From Microthrixaceae bacterium (GTDB lineage Bacteria; Actinomycetota; Acidimicrobiia; Acidimicrobiales; Microtrichaceae), in NCBI GenBank assembly GCA_020027475.1, contig JAHRAZ010000052.1:1-49066 (forward strand): DNA of 49,066 nucleotides. The letters run 5' to 3'. Below the pieces are notes generated by a model that was given only the letters and a program-made list of their open reading frames with translations, made no database searches and was not told where the DNA came from. Within the stretch, counting starts at the first letter, position 1, and every line of letters starts with the position of its first letter. Made by a program: the position numbers and the translations under genes. This document shows, piece by piece, positions 1,022 to 22,021 of the stretch.

Positions 1022-1881
1022 GTCGGGTCCTCGCACACCGCAAACAACACGAGAGTGGACGGATCAATCTCTTCGGTCAGGAAGAAGTCGTCCTCTGTGA
1101 TGCCTGATTGCCCGCCGACCTGTTCGGTGTTCGTGTACCTGTATGCCACGCGCCGACCGGTGGCATGCAACCACACGAATGCCCCACGCGGGAGTTTGTG
1201 TCTGAGACCCAGTGGATCCAGACGGAGCAGCTTCTGTGCCATCTCCCGGCGCTTCTCGAAGTCCCCCTTGGCCTCCGCAGAGGCATCGAGGCCATACAAC
1301 TTCACGGAGGCGAAATGGCGGGAAAGCATCGCTTGCAGGTCGGGAGGATCGAAAAGGTGGACGTGATAGGGATTTTCGAAGTCCGCCGGTTTGTTGGGCG
1401 TCAGGAAATAGGCCTTCCCCCCGGGCGAGAGCACGCGTGACACCTCGCGTACGTGGTGCTCCGGATCGACAAAGTGCTCGATCAAATGGGATGAGCAGAC
1501 ATCATCGAAGGTGTTTGCGGCCAGTCCAATGGCTGACCCGTCGCTGCAGATTGCACGGAATCCCTCGGAGCCGTGAACCCGCGTGGCAGTCGCCGCCGTC
1601 TCGGCGTCGTAGTCCACGCCGACCACGTAGCGGCCGGCGCCGCTGAAGCCCACACTTTCATCGCCGAGACCGCAGCCGACATCGAGAAACATGCCCGCAC
1701 CCATGCGAGAACGCACTTCGCGATAGCCGGCAGCATGAAGCGCCAGGAGCGAGTCCGGGGTTTCTCCCTGCATTGGGCGTTCGCCGGTCAGTTTCACATA
1801 TGCCTCCTGGTTGCGGGGCTGGAACCCCGGCTGAATATCATATGCGAAGTAGTGGCGAATCCCGGAGGCCCGTGAACACAC
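991..1881 (-). CDS. class I SAM-dependent methyltransferase
   Basis: A Rossmann methyltransferase core is clear: motif I FLDVGCGLGDES with the acidic VVGVDYD strand behind it, then SHLIEHFVDPEHHVREVSRV and a post-motif LSPGGKAYFLTPN, typical of the Methyltransf_11/UbiE-like group. A segment before the fold (GERPMQGETPDSLLALHAAGY) suggests a substrate-recognition N-terminus. The start is uncertain: GTG at 1881 or TTG at 1884 would make the 5' end overlap the divergent GT4 gene, whereas ATG at 1773 would shorten the protein by 36 residues but drop the conserved-looking FAYDIQPG stretch. Context suggests modification of a surface glycan or its lipid-linked precursor. The substrate cannot be read from the sequence. 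Confidence 0.8.
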   Translation of the reverse strand: MCSRASGIRHYFAYDIQPGFQPRNQEAYVKLTGERPMQGETPDSLLALHAAGYREVRSRMGAGMFLDVGCGLGDESVGFSGAGRYVVGVDYDAETAATATRVHGSEGFRAICSDGSAIGLAANTFDDVCSSHLIEHFVDPEHHVREVSRVLSPGGKAYFLTPNKPADFENPYHVHLFDPPDLQAMLSRHFASVKLYGLDASAEAKGDFEKRREMAQKLLRLDPLGLRHKLPRGAFVWLHATGRRVAYRYTNTEQVGGQSGITEDDFFLTEEIDPSTLVLFAVCEDPTQDSESGADS

Positions 1882-3089
1882 CAAGAGTGAGCGAAGTGAC
1901 GCGGCGGGAGATTGCCGATCTGGCCGAAGAAGCTGGACTGCGAACGGTCCACATGATGGCTTGGCGCGATCTGGACGACGACGAGGCCGGTGGATCCGAG
2001 ATCCATGCACACAACATTGCCGCGATCTGGGCCCAGTCGGGCCTCGAAGTTACGATGCGCACATCCTTCTCCGAGGGTCGGCCCAACATCGATGAGCGCG
2101 AGGGATACAGGGTGTGCCGATACGGCAGCCGCTACTCGGTGTTTCCCCGCACCGCAGCCGCCGAGATGGGTCGGCGAATGGGTCCCTGTGACGGGCTCGT
2201 GGAGATCTGGAACGGAATGCCGTTCATGTCCCCGGTTTGGCGTCGCGGACCGCGGATGATCTGGCTGCACCACATTCATGGACCGATGTGGGAAATGACC
2301 CTTCCCTCCCCAGTTGCCAAAGCCGGCGTGTTCCTGGAAGAACGCATCGGGCCGATCGTCTATCGCAACCAGCCGATAGTCACACTCTCGCGCTCCCCCG
2401 AAGAGGAGCTTCTGGTGCTTGGATTCCCCCGGGACAGGGTCCAAGTCGTCACGCCCGGCATCGACCCCAGTTTCACACCCGGTGGCACCGACAGCCTGGT
2501 CCCGCTTGTTCTGGGGGTAGGGCGGCTGGTTGCGGTCAAGGACTTCCAACGGCTGGTGCGCGTGTTCGCCCGCACACTCGCGGAGGTTCCGGCGGCTCAA
2601 CTCGTGATAGTCGGTGAGGGCTACGAACGGCCCGAAATCGAAAGGGAAATCAGTGACCTCGGGATCGAAGCCTCCGTGACCTTGCCGGGACGAGTGAGTG
2701 ACGACGAGCTGTTGTCCCTGTATCGCCGTGCCTGGGCGGTGTCATCGGTATCGGTGAGGGAGGGCTGGGGCATGACCCTGACTGAAGCCGCGGCCTGTGG
2801 AACACCGGCGGTTGCCACTGACATCGCCGGGCACTCCGATGCAGTCGACAATGGACGCTCCGGAATATTGGCAACAACTGACAATGAGCTGTCGGACGCC
2901 ATCACCAAGGTGCTGAGCGATCCGGCACTGCGTCGACGTCTGTCCGACGGCGCGCTGGATCGGGCATCGGTGCTCACTTGGGAGAATGCGGCACTGGCCA
3001 ATTTCGAAGTGCTGGCCGCCGATGCCCGAAGACGCCGAAACGGTTTCGTTCCACGGATGCGCAGCCGATTGGGCAGTCGTGGCCGATGA
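1872..3089 (+). CDS. GT4-family glycosyltransferase
   Basis: This protein of about 405 residues is a GT-B retaining glycosyltransferase that would transfer a sugar from an NDP-sugar to a glycan or lipid acceptor in the cytoplasm. The N-terminal half holds GGSEIHAHNIA, the acceptor-side glycine-rich loop; the C-terminal half begins VPLVLGVGRLVAVKDFQRLV and ends with the GT4 signature EGWGMTLTEAAACGTP containing the paired glutamates. The start is GTG 1872 with GGAGG at 1864-1868; GTG 1887 in the same frame is the alternative. Its 3' end overlaps the next gene by 11 bases, which points to translational coupling. The 5' end is divergent from, and may overlap, the methyltransferase gene. Confidence 0.88.
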   Translation: MNTPRVSEVTRREIADLAEEAGLRTVHMMAWRDLDDDEAGGSEIHAHNIAAIWAQSGLEVTMRTSFSEGRPNIDEREGYRVCRYGSRYSVFPRTAAAEMGRRMGPCDGLVEIWNGMPFMSPVWRRGPRMIWLHHIHGPMWEMTLPSPVAKAGVFLEERIGPIVYRNQPIVTLSRSPEEELLVLGFPRDRVQVVTPGIDPSFTPGGTDSLVPLVLGVGRLVAVKDFQRLVRVFARTLAEVPAAQLVIVGEGYERPEIEREISDLGIEASVTLPGRVSDDELLSLYRRAWAVSSVSVREGWGMTLTEAAACGTPAVATDIAGHSDAVDNGRSGILATTDNELSDAITKVLSDPALRRRLSDGALDRASVLTWENAALANFEVLAADARRRRNGFVPRMRSRLGSRGR

Positions 3090-3729
3090 GTTCATCCTCG
3101 GGGTTGACCTTGATGGGGTCTGCGGGGACTACAACCACGCGTTTCGCGACGCCGTGGCGCGACACCGCGGGGTGACTTCAGAGTCACTGACACTGGATGT
3201 CCAGTGGGACTTCGTGGACTGGGACCTGGATCGGGAAGGCTTCCTGGCGCATCATCGGCGTGCCGTGGTGGAGGACAGGATCTTCGCCACGATGCCCGCG
3301 ATCCCCGGGGCTGCCGAGGCGCTGTGGCGGCTTTCCGACGCCGGGGTCTGGATCAGGCTCATCACCCACCGACTGATCCACAACTGGTCGCACGCCACGG
3401 TTGTGTCCGACACGGTGGAATGGCTCGACAGCACGGGCATCCCGTACCGGGACATCTGTTTCCTGGGCCAGAAACCCCAGGTGGAAGCCGACGCCTACAT
3501 TGATGATGCTCCACACAATGTGGAAGCCCTGCGAGCGGCCGGCAATGAGGTGATCGTGTTCAACCAGTCCTACAACCGCGAACTGGCCGGTCCCCGTGCT
3601 GACAACTGGATGCAGGCCGAAGAGATCATCACCCGACTGGTGCTCGATCACTCCGGCAGTTTTCCGACGTCGCTGCCAGGCCTCGATGCAGATCCCGACC
3701 GGATCCAGCGCAACCGGCCCCAAGGCTGA
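3079..3729 (+). CDS. HAD-superfamily phosphatase, 5'(3')-deoxyribonucleotidase (NT5C)-like
   Basis: The HAD motifs are in order: motif I VDLDGVCGDY near the N-terminus, motif II LITHR in the middle, and motif III/IV KPQVEADAYIDDAPHNV. The overall arrangement and length (216 residues) match the cytosolic 5'-nucleotidase type C group (PF06941), which dephosphorylates (deoxy)nucleoside monophosphates; a sugar-phosphate substrate is equally possible in this glycan neighbourhood. The GTG at 3079 lies inside the end of the GT4 gene (11-base overlap), and no good ribosome-binding site is seen, so coupled translation is likely. An ATG at 3086 exists but is out of frame. The gene faces the GT2 gene tail to tail. 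Confidence 0.75.
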   Translation: MADEFILGVDLDGVCGDYNHAFRDAVARHRGVTSESLTLDVQWDFVDWDLDREGFLAHHRRAVVEDRIFATMPAIPGAAEALWRLSDAGVWIRLITHRLIHNWSHATVVSDTVEWLDSTGIPYRDICFLGQKPQVEADAYIDDAPHNVEALRAAGNEVIVFNQSYNRELAGPRADNWMQAEEIITRLVLDHSGSFPTSLPGLDADPDRIQRNRPQG

Positions 3730-3733
3730 CCAC

Positions 3734-3750
3734 CCGTTGCTCGACAACGG
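3734..3750. terminator. possible bidirectional terminator hairpin
   Basis: CCGTTG and CAACGG form a 6-bp stem with a 5-base loop, 4 bases after the stop of the nucleotidase-like gene and before the convergent GT2 stop at 3787. No clear T-tract follows on either strand, so intrinsic termination is uncertain. Confidence 0.3.
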
Positions 3751-3786
3751 CACAGAAACCCGCTCTTCGGTTCCATGCGTCCCGGC

Positions 3787-4701
3787 TCAGCGCGATATTC
3801 GCGTTGAAAGACCGCGTCTTGCCGGAAAGTCGGAATCCGGGGGTGGACCGAAGCGGCGCAGAGCGAAGTCACGCATACCGGCCAATCTGGCTGAGACTTC
3901 GAACACCGGAGGGCGGGTCGACTCGTCGCGAACACCGCGCGAGATTTGCGCCAATGTGAAGCATGACCGGATGAACGCGTGATACCAGCCCGACATTTCC
4001 TGCACCAGCAGAAGTGTGTTGCGAGTCTGCAGATAGTCAACGAGCCACACCGAGGACCCGAGGTTGAGGTTCCTCACCATGGCTCCCCGGATCAGGCCTA
4101 CCTTCCAGCCGTCGCGGCGTGCCCTGATGGACAGGTCGGCCTCCTCGCAATATGAGAAGAACCGTTCGTCGAAGAGACCGATCTCGTTGAGGGCAATCCC
4201 GCGCAGCATCATCAGCGTGCCATGCGGGTACCCCACGGTCTCCCAGCCGGGAACCGACGATCCCGGAACGACCATGCCGCCGAAATAGGGATCAATCACC
4301 GGGGACATCCCGTCACCAACATCGGCGCACATGAGTGCTGCCATGGGTTCCGACTCGGCTGCGTCGAGCATGGTGATCAGTGTGTCACTGCCGGGATCCA
4401 CGTCGTGAGGGGCGAGTACGACCCACTCAGACCGTTCGGGATCACTCAGGTAACGCCGGATCCCGGCGTTGGCACCCGGGCCGAACCCGGAGTTGTACGC
4501 CATTTCCAGCAACTCGATCGAGATGCCGTCCGCGGCTCGCGAAGCTATGCCGGCGCGCAGCGGAGCCAATTCATCGGCTTCCGATGAGTTGTCGACCACC
4601 ACGAAGCGGGTTGGAGCTGATTGTCGATGAAACCTGTCAATGGTCTCGAGCAGATCCTTGTGCTGATTCCAGTGGACCAACACCACCCAGAGTGGATCCA
4701 C
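3787..4701 (-). CDS. GT2-family glycosyltransferase (rhamnosyltransferase-like)
   Basis: A GT-A inverting glycosyltransferase of 304 residues. It opens with WVVLVHWNQHKDL, followed by RFVVVDNSS (nucleotide-binding strand), NSGFGPGANAGI, an LAPHDVDPG stretch in the place of the DXD metal site, and GLFDERFFSYCEEADLSIRARRDGW, the acidic acceptor/base region typical of rhamnosyl- and galactofuranosyltransferases. GTG at 4701 lies one base beyond the gltD stop, and the gltD terminal codons supply a GAGG directly ahead, so it is probably co-translated with gltBD. That pairing of a nitrogen-assimilation operon with a surface-glycan gene is unusual, though it may simply be read-through into the neighbouring glycan locus. 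The acceptor is unknown. Confidence 0.85.
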   Translation of the reverse strand: MDPLWVVLVHWNQHKDLLETIDRFHRQSAPTRFVVVDNSSEADELAPLRAGIASRAADGISIELLEMAYNSGFGPGANAGIRRYLSDPERSEWVVLAPHDVDPGSDTLITMLDAAESEPMAALMCADVGDGMSPVIDPYFGGMVVPGSSVPGWETVGYPHGTLMMLRGIALNEIGLFDERFFSYCEEADLSIRARRDGWKVGLIRGAMVRNLNLGSSVWLVDYLQTRNTLLLVQEMSGWYHAFIRSCFTLAQISRGVRDESTRPPVFEVSARLAGMRDFALRRFGPPPDSDFPARRGLSTRISR

Positions 4702-17910: not shown

Positions 17911-18465
17911 TCAGCTTTCGGTGATCGTGATCGATTCGATGATGACGGGATCGGCAGGACGGTCACCCTGACCGGTCGGGGTGCCCTGGATGGCCGCAAG
18001 CACATCCTGGCCATCGATCAGCTTGCCGAAATGGGCGTACTGCGGTGGCAGTTGCATTCCCTGGGGACCTGAGATCACGAAGAACTGGCTGCCGTTGGTG
18101 TTGGGGCCGGCGTTGGCCATGGCCAACGAACCAAGTTCGTATTTGCCGGGCTCCGGAAGTTCATCCTCGAAACGGTATCCGGGACCACCCGTGCCGGTGC
18201 CCTCCGGGCATCCGCCCTGAATGACGAAGTCACGGATGATGCGGTGGAAGGTCAGACCGTCGTAGTAGTGATACCGGGCCAGACTGACGAAGTTGTTGAC
18301 AGTCTTCGGTGCCATCTTCGGATACAGGAAGGCGTTCATCGTGCCGAAGTTGGTCACGATCTTGGCCGTGTACTCCTTCTCCACATCGATGCACATCGGC
18401 ATTTCGGACTTGAACTTGGTCTGGCGTTCGGAGGAACCATCGGGATTCGGGCAGTCAGTGGACAT
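17911..18465 (-). CDS. cyclophilin-type peptidyl-prolyl cis-trans isomerase
   Basis: The protein catalyses proline isomerisation during folding. The core reads TNFGTMNAFLYPKMAPKTVNNFV, split here by family motif FHRIIRDFVIQGG with the catalytic Arg, Phe and Gln, then GPGYRFEDE, AMANAGPNTNGSQFFV and AHFGKLIDG with the active-site His. The Trp that binds cyclosporin in human cyclophilin A is not at the equivalent place, as in many bacterial forms. An N-terminal extension of about 30 residues lacks a signal peptide, so it is probably cytosolic. Its promoter is unusual: the -10 box is directly abutted by a 17-bp tandem array reaching into the end of the LCP gene. Confidence 0.95.
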   Translation of the reverse strand: MSTDCPNPDGSSERQTKFKSEMPMCIDVEKEYTAKIVTNFGTMNAFLYPKMAPKTVNNFVSLARYHYYDGLTFHRIIRDFVIQGGCPEGTGTGGPGYRFEDELPEPGKYELGSLAMANAGPNTNGSQFFVISGPQGMQLPPQYAHFGKLIDGQDVLAAIQGTPTGQGDRPADPVIIESITITES

Positions 18466-18477: not shown

Positions 18478-18540
18478 GTGGTTCCAGCGCGCTAGTGGTT
18501 CAAGCGCGCCAGTGGTTCAAGCGCGCTGGTGGTTCAGCGG
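18476..18540. repeat. 17-bp tandem repeat, three full units plus a partial one
   Basis: Units at 18476-18492, 18493-18509 and 18510-18526 read (T/C)AGTGGTTC(C/A)AGCGCGC, followed by a shortened unit at 18527-18540. On the minus strand each unit supplies TGAACCAC or GGAACCAC; the outermost TGA is the stop codon of the LCP gene. The array fills the whole space between the LCP stop and the cyclophilin -10 box, so copy-number change would alter the promoter but no protein. Confidence 0.9.
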
Positions 18541-19646
18541 AACTGTTGCAGTACGGCGTCCGCATCCGGTTGGATCAAAACAAGCACCGCCGCACCACCG
18601 ATGCGGGTCGGGGTTGTGGGCAGGATCACGGTTTCGGGTGCCTCGCCCCCGAGGTGTCGTCCAAGCGACAGTGCGTCGAACAGTGAAAATCCGGTGTCCA
18701 CGGTCAGACCTTCGGAAACCGAGGAGGCCGCTCGGCCGATGGCGACCGGATTCTTGGTGCCGCCCACTTCGGAGAAGGCAGCCAGCAGGAACCGCTGCTG
18801 ACGCTCCTGGCGCCCCAGGTCTCCAGTCGCATCCGTGATTTGCCGGCCGTCGATGAACTCGGTGTAGTGACGACTGCGGACATACGACAGAGCGTCCCGC
18901 CCGCTGAGCGTGACATCACCGGCCTCGGTTACGTTGAGACCCGATGCCGGGTCCGATGCCGGGTGGTCGAAATGGATGGTCACCCCTCCGACGGCGTCGA
19001 TCACTCCCGCGAACGAGGCAAAATCAACTTCTGCGTAGTGATGAACCGGCACATCGAGGGCGGACTGCACCGTTGCGACCAGATTTGCCGGTCCGTTGTT
19101 GAACGAGCCGTTGATCCGACCTTTGGTGCCGGAGCCAGCGATCGTGACCCAGAGGTCGCGGGGAATCGACATCATTTTCGTACCGGCCATCGAAGTGCTC
19201 AGGAGAATGATGGTGTCGGCGCGACTTCCCTCCACGGTGGGTTCCGCACCGGCGACTGCATCGGGATCGAGGTTTGAGCGCGAGTCTGAGCCCACCAACA
19301 GGTAGTTGGTCACATCTCCGATTTGCTCATCGAGCACTCCGGAGAGGTCAACCCGATCAACCGCATTCCACGAAGTCCACAACCAACCCGCGAAGGCCAG
19401 CATCACCACCAGGAACAGGACCAGAATGAACCCGATCCAGCGCTTGACATTCCGCTTCTGTTTCTTTCCTTTCGGCTTACCCCCGGGCTGTGTCGGCGGA
19501 GGCGTGCCAGGGGGCGGTCGTCGAGGGGGCTTGGGTGGCGGTTGGACCGGTTTGGCCGCCCGGCCCGGTATGTGCACGGTGGCCGGTGCGGCCGGATCCG
19601 GGACATGCCACTGCCGTCCTGGTTCTCCGGGGCGCTGATCCGACAC
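18534..19646 (-). CDS. LytR-CpsA-Psr (LCP) family protein
   Basis: LCP enzymes transfer lipid-linked glycopolymers onto peptidoglycan, outside the membrane. A proline- and lysine-rich cytoplasmic N-terminus leads to one membrane helix (WIGFILVLFLVVMLAFAGWLW). The LCP domain follows with NYLLVGSDSRSNLD, GSRADTIILLS, MMSIPRDLWVTI, GRINGSFNNG, a long YAEVDFASFAGVIDAVGGV stretch and SYVRSRH, containing the acidic and arginine residues that bind pyrophosphate. Mycobacterial relatives ligate arabinogalactan, which fits the AftD-like gene at the window start. The start is GTG 19646 or GTG 19673 in the same frame; neither has a good ribosome-binding site. The stop codon is part of the 17-bp tandem array. 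Confidence 0.93.
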   Translation of the reverse strand: MSDQRPGEPGRQWHVPDPAAPATVHIPGRAAKPVQPPPKPPRRPPPGTPPPTQPGGKPKGKKQKRNVKRWIGFILVLFLVVMLAFAGWLWTSWNAVDRVDLSGVLDEQIGDVTNYLLVGSDSRSNLDPDAVAGAEPTVEGSRADTIILLSTSMAGTKMMSIPRDLWVTIAGSGTKGRINGSFNNGPANLVATVQSALDVPVHHYAEVDFASFAGVIDAVGGVTIHFDHPASDPASGLNVTEAGDVTLSGRDALSYVRSRHYTEFIDGRQITDATGDLGRQERQQRFLLAAFSEVGGTKNPVAIGRAASSVSEGLTVDTGFSLFDALSLGRHLGGEAPETVILPTTPTRIGGAAVLVLIQPDADAVLQQFR

Positions 19647-19836
19647 AGCGACAGTGTTGCATCCGCGGCCCACACTGGAGCGTCATGCGGCCACGAATCC
19701 CTGCGTTCGATCTGGGGACAGATCCGAGAGTCCCGGATAACCCGGACTCTCCCAAGAAGCCCGGATTCTCCCCGGGGCGGGCTGCCTCCCACAACCCCGA
19801 ACCCGCGACAAGTCGAGGCGGGTTGCTTCGGTCGAA

Positions 19837-19842
19837 TATGTT
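19837..19842 (+). promoter_or_regulatory. -10 box of a leaderless promoter (sigma-like/hydrolase-like fusion gene)
   Basis: TATGTT ends six bases (CAGGTT) before the GTG at 19849. The AGG inside that spacer is too close to act as a ribosome-binding site. Confidence 0.45.
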
Positions 19843-19848
19843 CAGGTT

Positions 19849-21336
19849 GTGGATTCGGGCGATACCTTCAGCGTTGCTGTTCAAATTGCGACATCACTTC
19901 TCGGGGATCCAAAAGCTGCAGCAGAAGTAGCGGCGACAGCCGAGGTACGACACAGTCTCGCTGATCCGATTCCCTGGCCCCGCGTGCTGACACCGGTGGC
20001 ACACGACGTTGTGGCGGAATGCCTCCAGAGGCAAACGGGCGACGGGGCCCCGGGCGACGACGCGGACCGCCCGGAGGCAAGCCTGCGTGAATCGGTGCGA
20101 CGCAGGTTGGCGAGCTGCGATGACCAAGAGCGAATCGCCTGCGCCCTGCATCGACTGGGCGGAGTGGACCAAACGCTGACAGCCGAAGCGATGCAGATCT
20201 CACCGCAGCAGGTCCACCGGCTGTGCGTTCCACTCTCGCTGGGGCCGGATGTCAGTTACGCCGAACTCACAGACACAACCCCCACGAACACCGCCCCCGC
20301 GGACCCGACACCCGCGGACCCGACACCCGCGGACCCGACACCCGCGGACCCGACACCCGGCCGGGCAGGGACCGTCCGGCGCAAGCGCCCCCGGAAATCC
20401 CTGATGCCGGTGATCATCACAGTCACATTGTTGGCCGTGGTGTCGATCGCTCTGTTGGCCCGCTGCAACGGCGAGCGACCTGCATTCGACGACGTGGACT
20501 CAGACCCCGGAACTGTGATTTCTGCCGATGCCGCTCCGATCCCGTCAGCAGGCTGTGGGAATCCGAGCCTCCCAACCGATGGTGACACTGATTCCGCAGA
20601 GTTTGCTGAACCATCTCCGAAACCGATGATCGTCTCTCTACCCGGTTTCGGGCAGACCGCGGATGAACTTGCCGGAATCATCGGATGGCCGCTCCTCGCA
20701 GAGGAAGCGTTGGTGATCGGGATAGACCCGGCACCCGATGAATCGGAGTTCAATACGCTCGGCGATCCGAACCGCCGTGACGACCGCTCCGAAGTCGTGC
20801 GCATGACCGAGGACGCAATCGCCGGCGAGTGCGTCGATCTCGCACGTGTACACCTTGTCGGATATGGACCCGGAGGCCAGCTGGCAGGGGGCATTGCGTG
20901 CACGAACGCCGCCCTCTACGCGACCGTGACCATGGTCTCGGGCTGGATGATGCCAGACACATGCGAACTTGATCCCCCCATATCCGCATTGTTCGTGGCC
21001 AACTTCGCCGACCCGGTCATCTCGATCAACGGCGGATACGGACCCGAGGCCCAATCCGTCTTTGTTGACCAGGCGCTCCGTCGAGCTGATTCGGAGCCTC
21101 TCGGCGACGTCGCCTCCCGCTGGGCCGAGGCCATCGATACCGAGACGTTGCCGGAGGTCCCCTACCTCGGCACTGATCTCTCCCGAGATCAGGGAGCTGG
21201 GGCCGTGGCTGAATCCTGGAGCGCATCCACGGGAGCAGAGGTAACCGTGGTGATCAACCCGAGCTCCTCCCATGACTGGTATCCGGACAATTTCGGCACG
21301 ATTCTGGAGTTCATGGTTGCGCACGCCCGCAACTGA
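19849..21336 (+). CDS. membrane protein joining a sigma-region-4-like cytoplasmic part to a PHB-depolymerase/LpqC-like domain lacking the Ser nucleophile
   Basis: I do not know a named family for this 495-residue protein. Residues 1-130 resemble a degenerate ECF sigma factor: a helical segment GDPKAAAEVAATAEVRH and a region-4-like DDQERIACALHRLGG with a helix-turn-helix-like TAEAMQISPQQVHRL. A linker of four perfect 15-bp repeats (PADPT units, residues about 150-170) and a basic patch precede one membrane helix (residues 186-205). The outer part from residue 258 has an alpha/beta-hydrolase pattern as in LpqC/PHB depolymerases: SLPGFGQTADEL, VHLVGYGPGGQLAGG, FADPVISINGG and SSHDWYPD. The nucleophile position in GxSxGG is Gly340, so catalysis is unlikely, although the Asp and His475 remain. 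A transmembrane sensor-regulator is one reading; a structural protein is another. Confidence 0.7.
   Translation: MDSGDTFSVAVQIATSLLGDPKAAAEVAATAEVRHSLADPIPWPRVLTPVAHDVVAECLQRQTGDGAPGDDADRPEASLRESVRRRLASCDDQERIACALHRLGGVDQTLTAEAMQISPQQVHRLCVPLSLGPDVSYAELTDTTPTNTAPADPTPADPTPADPTPADPTPGRAGTVRRKRPRKSLMPVIITVTLLAVVSIALLARCNGERPAFDDVDSDPGTVISADAAPIPSAGCGNPSLPTDGDTDSAEFAEPSPKPMIVSLPGFGQTADELAGIIGWPLLAEEALVIGIDPAPDESEFNTLGDPNRRDDRSEVVRMTEDAIAGECVDLARVHLVGYGPGGQLAGGIACTNAALYATVTMVSGWMMPDTCELDPPISALFVANFADPVISINGGYGPEAQSVFVDQALRRADSEPLGDVASRWAEAIDTETLPEVPYLGTDLSRDQGAGAVAESWSASTGAEVTVVINPSSSHDWYPDNFGTILEFMVAHARN
20296..20355. repeat. 15-bp tandem repeat in coding sequence, four perfect copies
   Basis: Four exact copies of CCCGCGGACCCGACA encode the PADPT linker repeats between the cytoplasmic domain and the membrane helix of the fusion protein. 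Because the unit is a multiple of three, copy-number change would alter linker length without shifting the frame. Confidence 0.95.
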
Positions 21337-21436
21337 GGTGATCCCGGCACAACACCCCGGATTCGAGGCCCGGAAAAGCCTGCGATCCAAGCGTTGCTCC
21401 GGCGAGCGTGACCGACATCAGCACGAACGGCCTCCG

Positions 21437-22021
21437 TCAGCGAAATGGTGGTCCCGACAACCACGAAACAAGTGAACAACGCAGCCCACTGATCAACGGT
21501 GTCACCCTGTGATACTCAAAGGCCGGAAACGAGATGACCGAACCAATCGCGCGAGCCGACAAGAGGTAGCCGTCTCGCTCCTGGCTGTCGTAGTCCTCGG
21601 CGACCTCCAGGAATTCGAGGTCGGCACCCTCATATCCGCTCGGGTCACTCAACTGGATCACCAACGAAAGCTTCCGGTGTTCCAGACCTTCTTCGAAGCC
21701 GTCGTGGTGCCAGGTGTAGTGAGATCCCTCCGACTCATAGACCGTGAACTGCAGATCTTCGGAGAAACCGTCCAGATCGAAGCCATAACCATCGTTGGCG
21801 GCTTCTGCCACTGCGGCCAGACGCTCGTGTATCCAGTTGTCATCCCCGGATTCACCAATCCAGGCCACGCGTGATTCGCGGATGTCGGCGGAGACGTCCT
21901 CCACCCCTTCCACACCTGCCACGGTGCCGGACCGCTCGAGCCGGATTTGCTCGAACCCGAGACGGACAATCTCGGCACATTCGCGCGGCGTGAAAACGTC
22001 GGGATGGATATGGAAGTTCAT
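21437..22021 (-). CDS. 2-oxoglutarate/Fe(II)-dependent dioxygenase (PKHD/P4H type)
   Basis: A double-stranded beta-helix oxygenase of about 194 residues. The iron ligands are His and Asp in YTWHHDGFE and the distal His in FPAFEYHRVTP; the Arg in SGLRCSLVSWL would hold the 2-oxoglutarate carboxylate. The N-terminal HIHPDVFTPRECAEIVRLG is typical of PKHD-type hydroxylases such as the PiuC/YbiX group, which hydroxylate proteins or small molecules. ATG 22021 is preferred to 22036 (five residues longer); no clear ribosome-binding site precedes either. It is divergent from the Rrf2 regulator across about 95 bases, which may control it. Confidence 0.9.
   Translation of the reverse strand: MNFHIHPDVFTPRECAEIVRLGFEQIRLERSGTVAGVEGVEDVSADIRESRVAWIGESGDDNWIHERLAAVAEAANDGYGFDLDGFSEDLQFTVYESEGSHYTWHHDGFEEGLEHRKLSLVIQLSDPSGYEGADLEFLEVAEDYDSQERDGYLLSARAIGSVISFPAFEYHRVTPLISGLRCSLVSWLSGPPFR

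Follow-up and report, generated by a model that had tools for sequence, protein, structure and literature searches.

The P0001 gene and its divergent neighbour

The window, by which we mean the whole 49,066-nucleotide stretch of Microthrixaceae DNA analysed here, carries on its plus strand, at positions 19849-21336, a gene for a membrane protein of 495 amino acids, P0001, in which a pseudo-sigma domain, a transmembrane (TM) helix and a pseudo-esterase domain appear to follow one another. The open reading frame begins with GTG, and this codon at 19849 is the first ATG, GTG or TTG in a stop-to-stop frame of 531 amino acids. When P0001 was used to query its own genome a single match was obtained at an E value of 1 or less, and a scan of genome contigs with P0001 alone as the query revealed no relative. 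A Pfam search of P0001 gave no match up to E 10, and of the three rows returned by an NCBIfam search one, NF050058, was significant.

Divergent from P0001 lies a gene for a LytR-CpsA-Psr (LCP) protein (18534-19673, minus strand; PF03816, E 5.5e-31, and synteny), the next gene after which encodes a cyclophilin-type peptidyl-prolyl isomerase (17911-18465, minus strand; PF00160, E 7e-38, and synteny). The LCP gene and P0001 are separated by a 175-bp intergenic region (19674-19848), and a scan of positions 19500-21600 for sigma-70-type promoters gave no match. The P0001 orthologue is divergent from an LCP gene in all 21 genomes where this could be tested (G003 and G006, which have no LCP gene on the contig, lie outside the 21), and the cyclophilin gene follows the LCP gene in 19 of these, G004 and G025 being the two in which it was not seen. 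Note that more than 1 kb lies between the LCP gene and the P0001-type gene in G001, G022 and G025. At 23 LCP loci from 22 genomes outside the bacterial family, neither a sigma-like open reading frame upstream nor a cyclophilin gene was found in flanks of approximately 1.5 kb, three of these loci (L146, L151 and L155) having almost no upstream sequence. The LCP neighbour would point to work on wall polymers; synteny of this kind need not imply joint function.

Within P0001, a perfect 15-bp tandem repeat of 4.3 copies (20296-20359, plus strand, as are all features of the gene) encodes a linker of Pro, Ala, Asp and Thr, and its copy number could vary between strains. Farther along is the TM helix (residues 186-206; 20404-20466), with the stretch RRKRPRK just before it and a juxtamembrane outer motif, GERP (residues 208-211; 20470-20481), after it; most of the 20 proteins compared carry a G-x-R-P motif after their TM helix. 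The TM assignment rests on a helix in the AlphaFold2 model, on hydrophobicity and on flanking charge, and agrees with the single membrane helix described in an earlier note on this DNA. Because the 15 residues before the helix carry a net charge of +7, and the 15 after it one of -2, the N terminus is placed inside.

The inner sigma-like domain

In an AlphaFold2 model of residues 1-142 of P0001, helices at residues 6-18, 21-37 and 47-64 correspond to sigma region 2 (residues 6-64; 19864-20040), and helices at 75-89, 92-103, 108-115 and 119-125 correspond to sigma region 4 (residues 75-126; 20071-20226), the part that bears the helix-turn-helix. Consistent with this, ECF sigma factors align with the profile of the P0001 family over regions 2 and 4, in that order, as expected of an ECF sigma factor. 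The earlier note had likened the inner part to sigma region 4; the sigma likeness stands, the restriction to region 4 does not, and the sigma fold whose presence the note had wanted checked was recovered by profile, AlphaFold2, Foldseek and VIA.

A search of the PDB with the family profile (13 rows) matched AlgU (6in7, deposited as a sigma-H factor; E 8.3e-4), SigJ and PhyR sigma-like chains; the top-ranked chain, a CAP REPEAT (3e-4), contained no significant stretch. Because an order-wide search with the profile recovers ordinary ECF sigma factors, at up to E 1.4e-16, and because one orthologue, L013 of genome G001, matches both TIGR02983 (4e-10) and the depolymerase model (1.8e-38) within a single protein, we consider the sigma likeness to be beyond chance. 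The TIGR02983 match of L013, together with the order-wide matches, also makes it likely that the N-terminal domain descends from SigE-family ECF sigma factors. (Elsewhere in the genome of origin, an open frame of 571 codons contains a match to sigma region 2, at G000:C133:14394-14600, locus L096.)

The model of residues 1-142 had a pLDDT of 83.6 and a pTM of 0.82. With this model Foldseek placed PhyR (2.7e-2) and the SigW-RsiW complex (2.9e-2) first, with no match below 0.001, and VIA returned SigW (Z 8.3; 125 residues aligned, 5.2 Å), CnrH-CnrY (Z 7.8) and PhyR-NepR (Z 7.6). Note that helical bundles scoring below Z 13 in VIA can be common arrangements, so it is the sequence evidence that carries the sigma-fold claim. 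The rmsd of the model was 4.0-5.3 Å against SigW-RsiW, CnrH-CnrY, RpoE-NepR and PhyR-NepR, and 28-29.5 Å against polymerase-bound sigma factors aligned over both domains. The pseudo-sigma domain is thus predicted to adopt a closed form resembling that of PhyR and of anti-sigma-bound sigma factors, a form that AlphaFold2 may favour for any ECF sigma factor.

What the domain appears to have lost are the residues with which a sigma factor works. Among 25 ECF sigma factors of the order we hand-picked, from conserved columns, 13 contact-type positions, which we take to contact polymerase and promoter. P0001 retains none of these in either region, and the 13 family members examined retain between 0 and 5, compared with 10-13 in the ECF comparison set (one ECF, with 5, excepted). 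In a count made without picking, 18 polar columns (conserved in at least 20 of the 25 ECFs) showed 28% identity, versus 47% for 24 columns of hydrophobic or small residues; a list of core positions, likewise picked by hand, was left out of the evidence. Moreover, net charge across the domain averages -5.5 in the family versus +6.6 in the ECFs. At the positions of R84 and R86 in P0001, 10 of 13 family members have Arg and none of the 25 ECFs does, a hint of a new contact surface; R80 is Arg in all 13 members and also in 22 of the 25 ECFs. Compared with SigE-family sigma factors (TIGR02983), then, P0001 has lost contact-type residues and positive charge and gained a TM helix. The DNA binding for which the earlier note had proposed a test is not supported by these residue and charge data, on which a DNA-binding or active sigma role of the N-terminal domain was rejected.

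These losses bear on whether P0001 could be an active sigma factor that is tethered to the membrane, in the manner of ECF52/ECF53, and released by proteolysis. Like the actinobacterial ECF52/ECF53 proteins, represented by SCO4117, P0001 has a sigma part followed by a TM helix, a proline-rich stretch and an outer domain, the order described for SCO4117 (PMC5826349; PMC8999054). According to the first of these sources, ECF52 combines a zinc finger with a carbohydrate-binding domain, and its sigma part has effects in vivo (PMC5826349). P0001 differs in having no zinc finger, in its lost sigma residues and in the pseudo-esterase outside. In particular, zf-HC2 was not among the 21 Pfam families matched by the 13 members, all 13 of which were without a zinc-finger match, and P0001 residues 127-205 contain no Cys; membership of P0001 in ECF52/ECF53 by way of the zinc finger was ruled out on the former ground. 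Given the lost contact-type positions, the missing zinc finger and the negative net charge, we regard an active tethered sigma factor as very improbable despite the shared domain order.

PhyR belongs to the general stress response of Alphaproteobacteria and is, to our knowledge, the single known case of sigma mimicry. Its sigma-like domain shares a degenerate ECF fold with the inner domain of P0001, among whose best structural matches it is; PhyR, however, is a NepR-binding response regulator, whereas P0001 joins its sigma-like domain to a TM helix and a pseudo-esterase outside the cell, and no receiver domain was found among the Pfam matches of the 13 members. By analogy, P0001 might be a membrane-anchored mimic in which engagement of the outer domain would cause the pseudo-sigma to take an anti-sigma factor from a real ECF sigma factor. 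The degenerate fold and its modelled closed form, like that of PhyR and of anti-sigma-bound sigma factors, are consistent with such a role, as is the description of PhyR as correct in ECF structure but degenerate in its promoter and RNA polymerase regions (PMC8103513). In the genome of origin, furthermore, two zf-HC2 matches that score over the cut-off each share a strand with an ECF sigma match, at distances of 63 and 227 bp. However, neither zf-HC2 nor RskA tracks the P0001-type gene: six genomes that lack the gene (G023 and G027-G031) carry both. Conversely, zf-HC2 was not found in five of six g6 genomes, RskA was not found in the genome of origin and neither was found in G017, absences that incomplete assemblies weaken. 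We therefore treat this mimicry as tentative and rather doubtful, and we think it unlikely that the full version holds, namely that a tethered pseudo-sigma under the control of a pseudo-esterase competes with a real ECF sigma factor for a regulator, in Actinomycetota and without a phosphorelay.

The outer esterase-like domain

The outer domain (residues 253-495; 20605-21333) resembles PHB depolymerases and feruloyl esterases. NF050058, the model for type 1 short-chain PHA depolymerases, matches residues 256-369 of P0001 at E 6.9e-11, its curated cut-off of 150 bits being reached neither by P0001 (42.1) nor by L013 (132.6). With the full P0001 model, VIA found the feruloyl esterase 7wwh and the PHB esterase 9byu (Z 11.4; approximately residues 253-473), and Foldseek found 9byu (2.3e-4) and LpqC (3d0k; 2.4e-2). 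Note that the model of this domain is poor, with pLDDT below 50 from residue 362, so that the fold is less well defined past that point. These matches support the LpqC-like, PHB-depolymerase-like fold that had been proposed from the sequence.

The place of the catalytic nucleophile, Ser in active enzymes of this kind, is taken in P0001 by Gly340 (20866-20868), in a GYGPGG stretch that begins at residue 338, and the places of the catalytic Asp and His are held by Asp388 (21010-21012) and His475 (21271-21273) in the alignment, just as the earlier note had read them. Among the 14 orthologues that have the outer domain, the nucleophile column holds Gly in 13, Glu in one and Ser, the residue that would have spoken against a dead enzyme, in none, and hence the Ser-Asp-His triad is incomplete in all 14. 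By contrast, Ser is present in this column in all 12 non-fusion esterase paralogues examined (these were the non-fusion matches with a locus that were placed in the alignment; further matches had none). Asp and His are both retained in 11 of the 14 orthologues and were lost in G003, G004 and G022. In addition, where the paralogues have HG (or HP) at residues 265-266, P0001 has P instead of H. The outer domain thus looks like a pseudo-esterase: it shares its fold family and its Asp and His places with NF050058 depolymerases, LpqC and feruloyl esterases, and it differs from them in the change of Ser to Gly and in being part of a membrane-tethered fusion.

Judged by residues, both halves of P0001 look dead, and the protein would be neither an active ECF sigma factor nor an active depolymerase; what alignments and models show is that in both domains the predicted activity sites are lost and the folds kept. 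Among the matches listed in mostly open-access literature, as far as their titles and abstract openings tell, an architecture of sigma-like part, TM helix and pseudo-esterase was not described, in line with the earlier remark that no such family was known. The nearest described ideas are PhyR and SCO4117.

Distribution, history and proposed role

P0001 matches occur in 29 of 33 genomes of the same bacterial family, many of them being separate esterase paralogues. Orthologues were counted by a search of these 33 genomes together with LCP-anchored inspection of the 15 that had no N-terminal match, and were found in 23 of the 33. The genomes, all from a single Microthrixaceae-like family of Acidimicrobiales, span 16 genera, 13 of which have an orthologue. 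As regards the spread of the fusion among relatives, which the earlier note had raised, 14 of the 23 have the outer domain, seven are N-only (sigma-like part, TM helix and short outer tail; G007, G008, G009, G011, G016, G017 and G024) and two are ambiguous (G012, cut by the contig end, and G032). Both halves are clear in nine: the source genome, G001, G004, G005, G006, G013, G014, G015 and G020. In a search of eight chosen proteins the sigma-like part was weak in G025 (17 bits) and barely recognisable in G022 (9 bits), whose protein matched no NCBIfam family at E 0.01 and was identified by alignment and genomic place. The contig of G003 begins past the sigma-like part, and G021 gave no N-terminal match, its neighbouring frames also being broken. 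Six genomes (G023 and G027-G031) have an LCP gene with no P0001-type gene beside it, and G002, G010, G018 and G026 were left out of the presence/absence judgement.

Three orthologous loci depart from these forms or stand out within them. L078 of G019 (3264-4223, minus strand) encodes a TM helix, a GDRP motif and a pseudo-esterase, with no match for the sigma part. At L084 of G032, two pseudo-sigma-like open reading frames lie near the LCP gene (1986-2657 and 3-977, both minus strand), one without a TM helix (59 bits in the search of eight proteins) and one running off the contig end (32 bits). L013 of G001 (1255-3084, minus strand) is the least decayed orthologue, with 5 of the 13 sigma contact-type positions kept and Glu at the nucleophile place, and is a possible bridge toward the ancestral state.

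Beyond the bacterial family, an order-wide search at E 0.001 gave matches in 142 of the 298 genomes covered, and the proteins at L111-L135, the best 25 of a longer list of loci outside the family, look like ordinary ECF sigma factors. A class-wide search (395 genomes, E 1e-13) returned four family members and weak matches at L163 and L164 (frames of 164 and 230 amino acids), and a phylum-wide search (396 genomes, E 1e-15) returned the genome of origin only; the profile misses divergent members even within the family (G022, in the order search), which limits what these absences say.

In a tree of LCP and cyclophilin sequences, the g6, g9 and g13 genomes, all of which are N-only, cut or ambiguous, form one clade with a support of 100, and the midpoint root has fusions on either side of it. 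It is therefore simplest to suppose that the pseudo-esterase was lost once; support at deep nodes is low (43, 43 and 11), and with the root placed elsewhere the change could be read as a gain instead. Since the outer domain is missing from the seven N-only proteins, and the sigma-like part is missing in G019, barely present in G022 and weak in G025, neither half is needed everywhere.

The module losses, the two inactivated domains and the gene's absence beside LCP in six genomes could be taken to mean that this is a functionless, decaying gene. The family is, however, under purifying selection, with dN/dS well below 1: we obtained values of 0.05-0.27 for whole N-only genes and 0.02-0.29 for their first 150 codons (both methods put whole-gene dS above 1 in three N-only pairs, and the G016/G017 pair is saturated); three fusion pairs gave 0.28-0.47, by NG86 only. 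With frames open and the place kept in 13 of 16 genera besides, we consider decay extremely improbable, even more so than an active tethered sigma factor.

The constant LCP neighbour, together with the fact that the TM helix with its GxRP motif is what both truncated forms retain, would also suit an envelope scaffold for LCP-dependent wall assembly that has no link to transcription, the sigma-derived domain being a mere cytoplasmic anchor or contact. Purifying selection on the first 150 codons of the N-only pairs, and the family-specific Arg positions, argue instead for a specific inner role, and we regard the scaffold as possible, with somewhat better prospects than sigma mimicry.

P0001 is most likely a membrane-tethered receptor or adaptor and not a DNA-binding regulator. 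The fuller proposition, which we judge about evenly balanced between right and wrong, is that P0001 is a type II membrane protein whose inner half derives from an ECF sigma factor and whose outer half derives from a secreted esterase of the PHB-depolymerase type, both dead, and that it serves as a receptor or adaptor of the cell envelope. As such, the outer pseudo-esterase, where present, would bind a partner protein or some ester-bearing component of the envelope and leave it uncut; the inner and outer domains would be coupled near LCP by the TM helix and its GxRP motif; and the closed, acidic pseudo-sigma domain would bind a protein partner and not promoter DNA or RNA polymerase. More speculatively, and with no better prospects than the mimicry described above, the inner domain may, like PhyR, have an anti-sigma factor for its partner. 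Ligand sensing is plausible, the seven N-only orthologues having only a short outer tail for it.

If the receptor or adaptor reading is true, P0001 would represent a second route from a sigma factor to a module that works outside transcription, and its family would offer a concrete, testable way into the biology of the cell envelope in a group of Actinomycetota that has been little studied.
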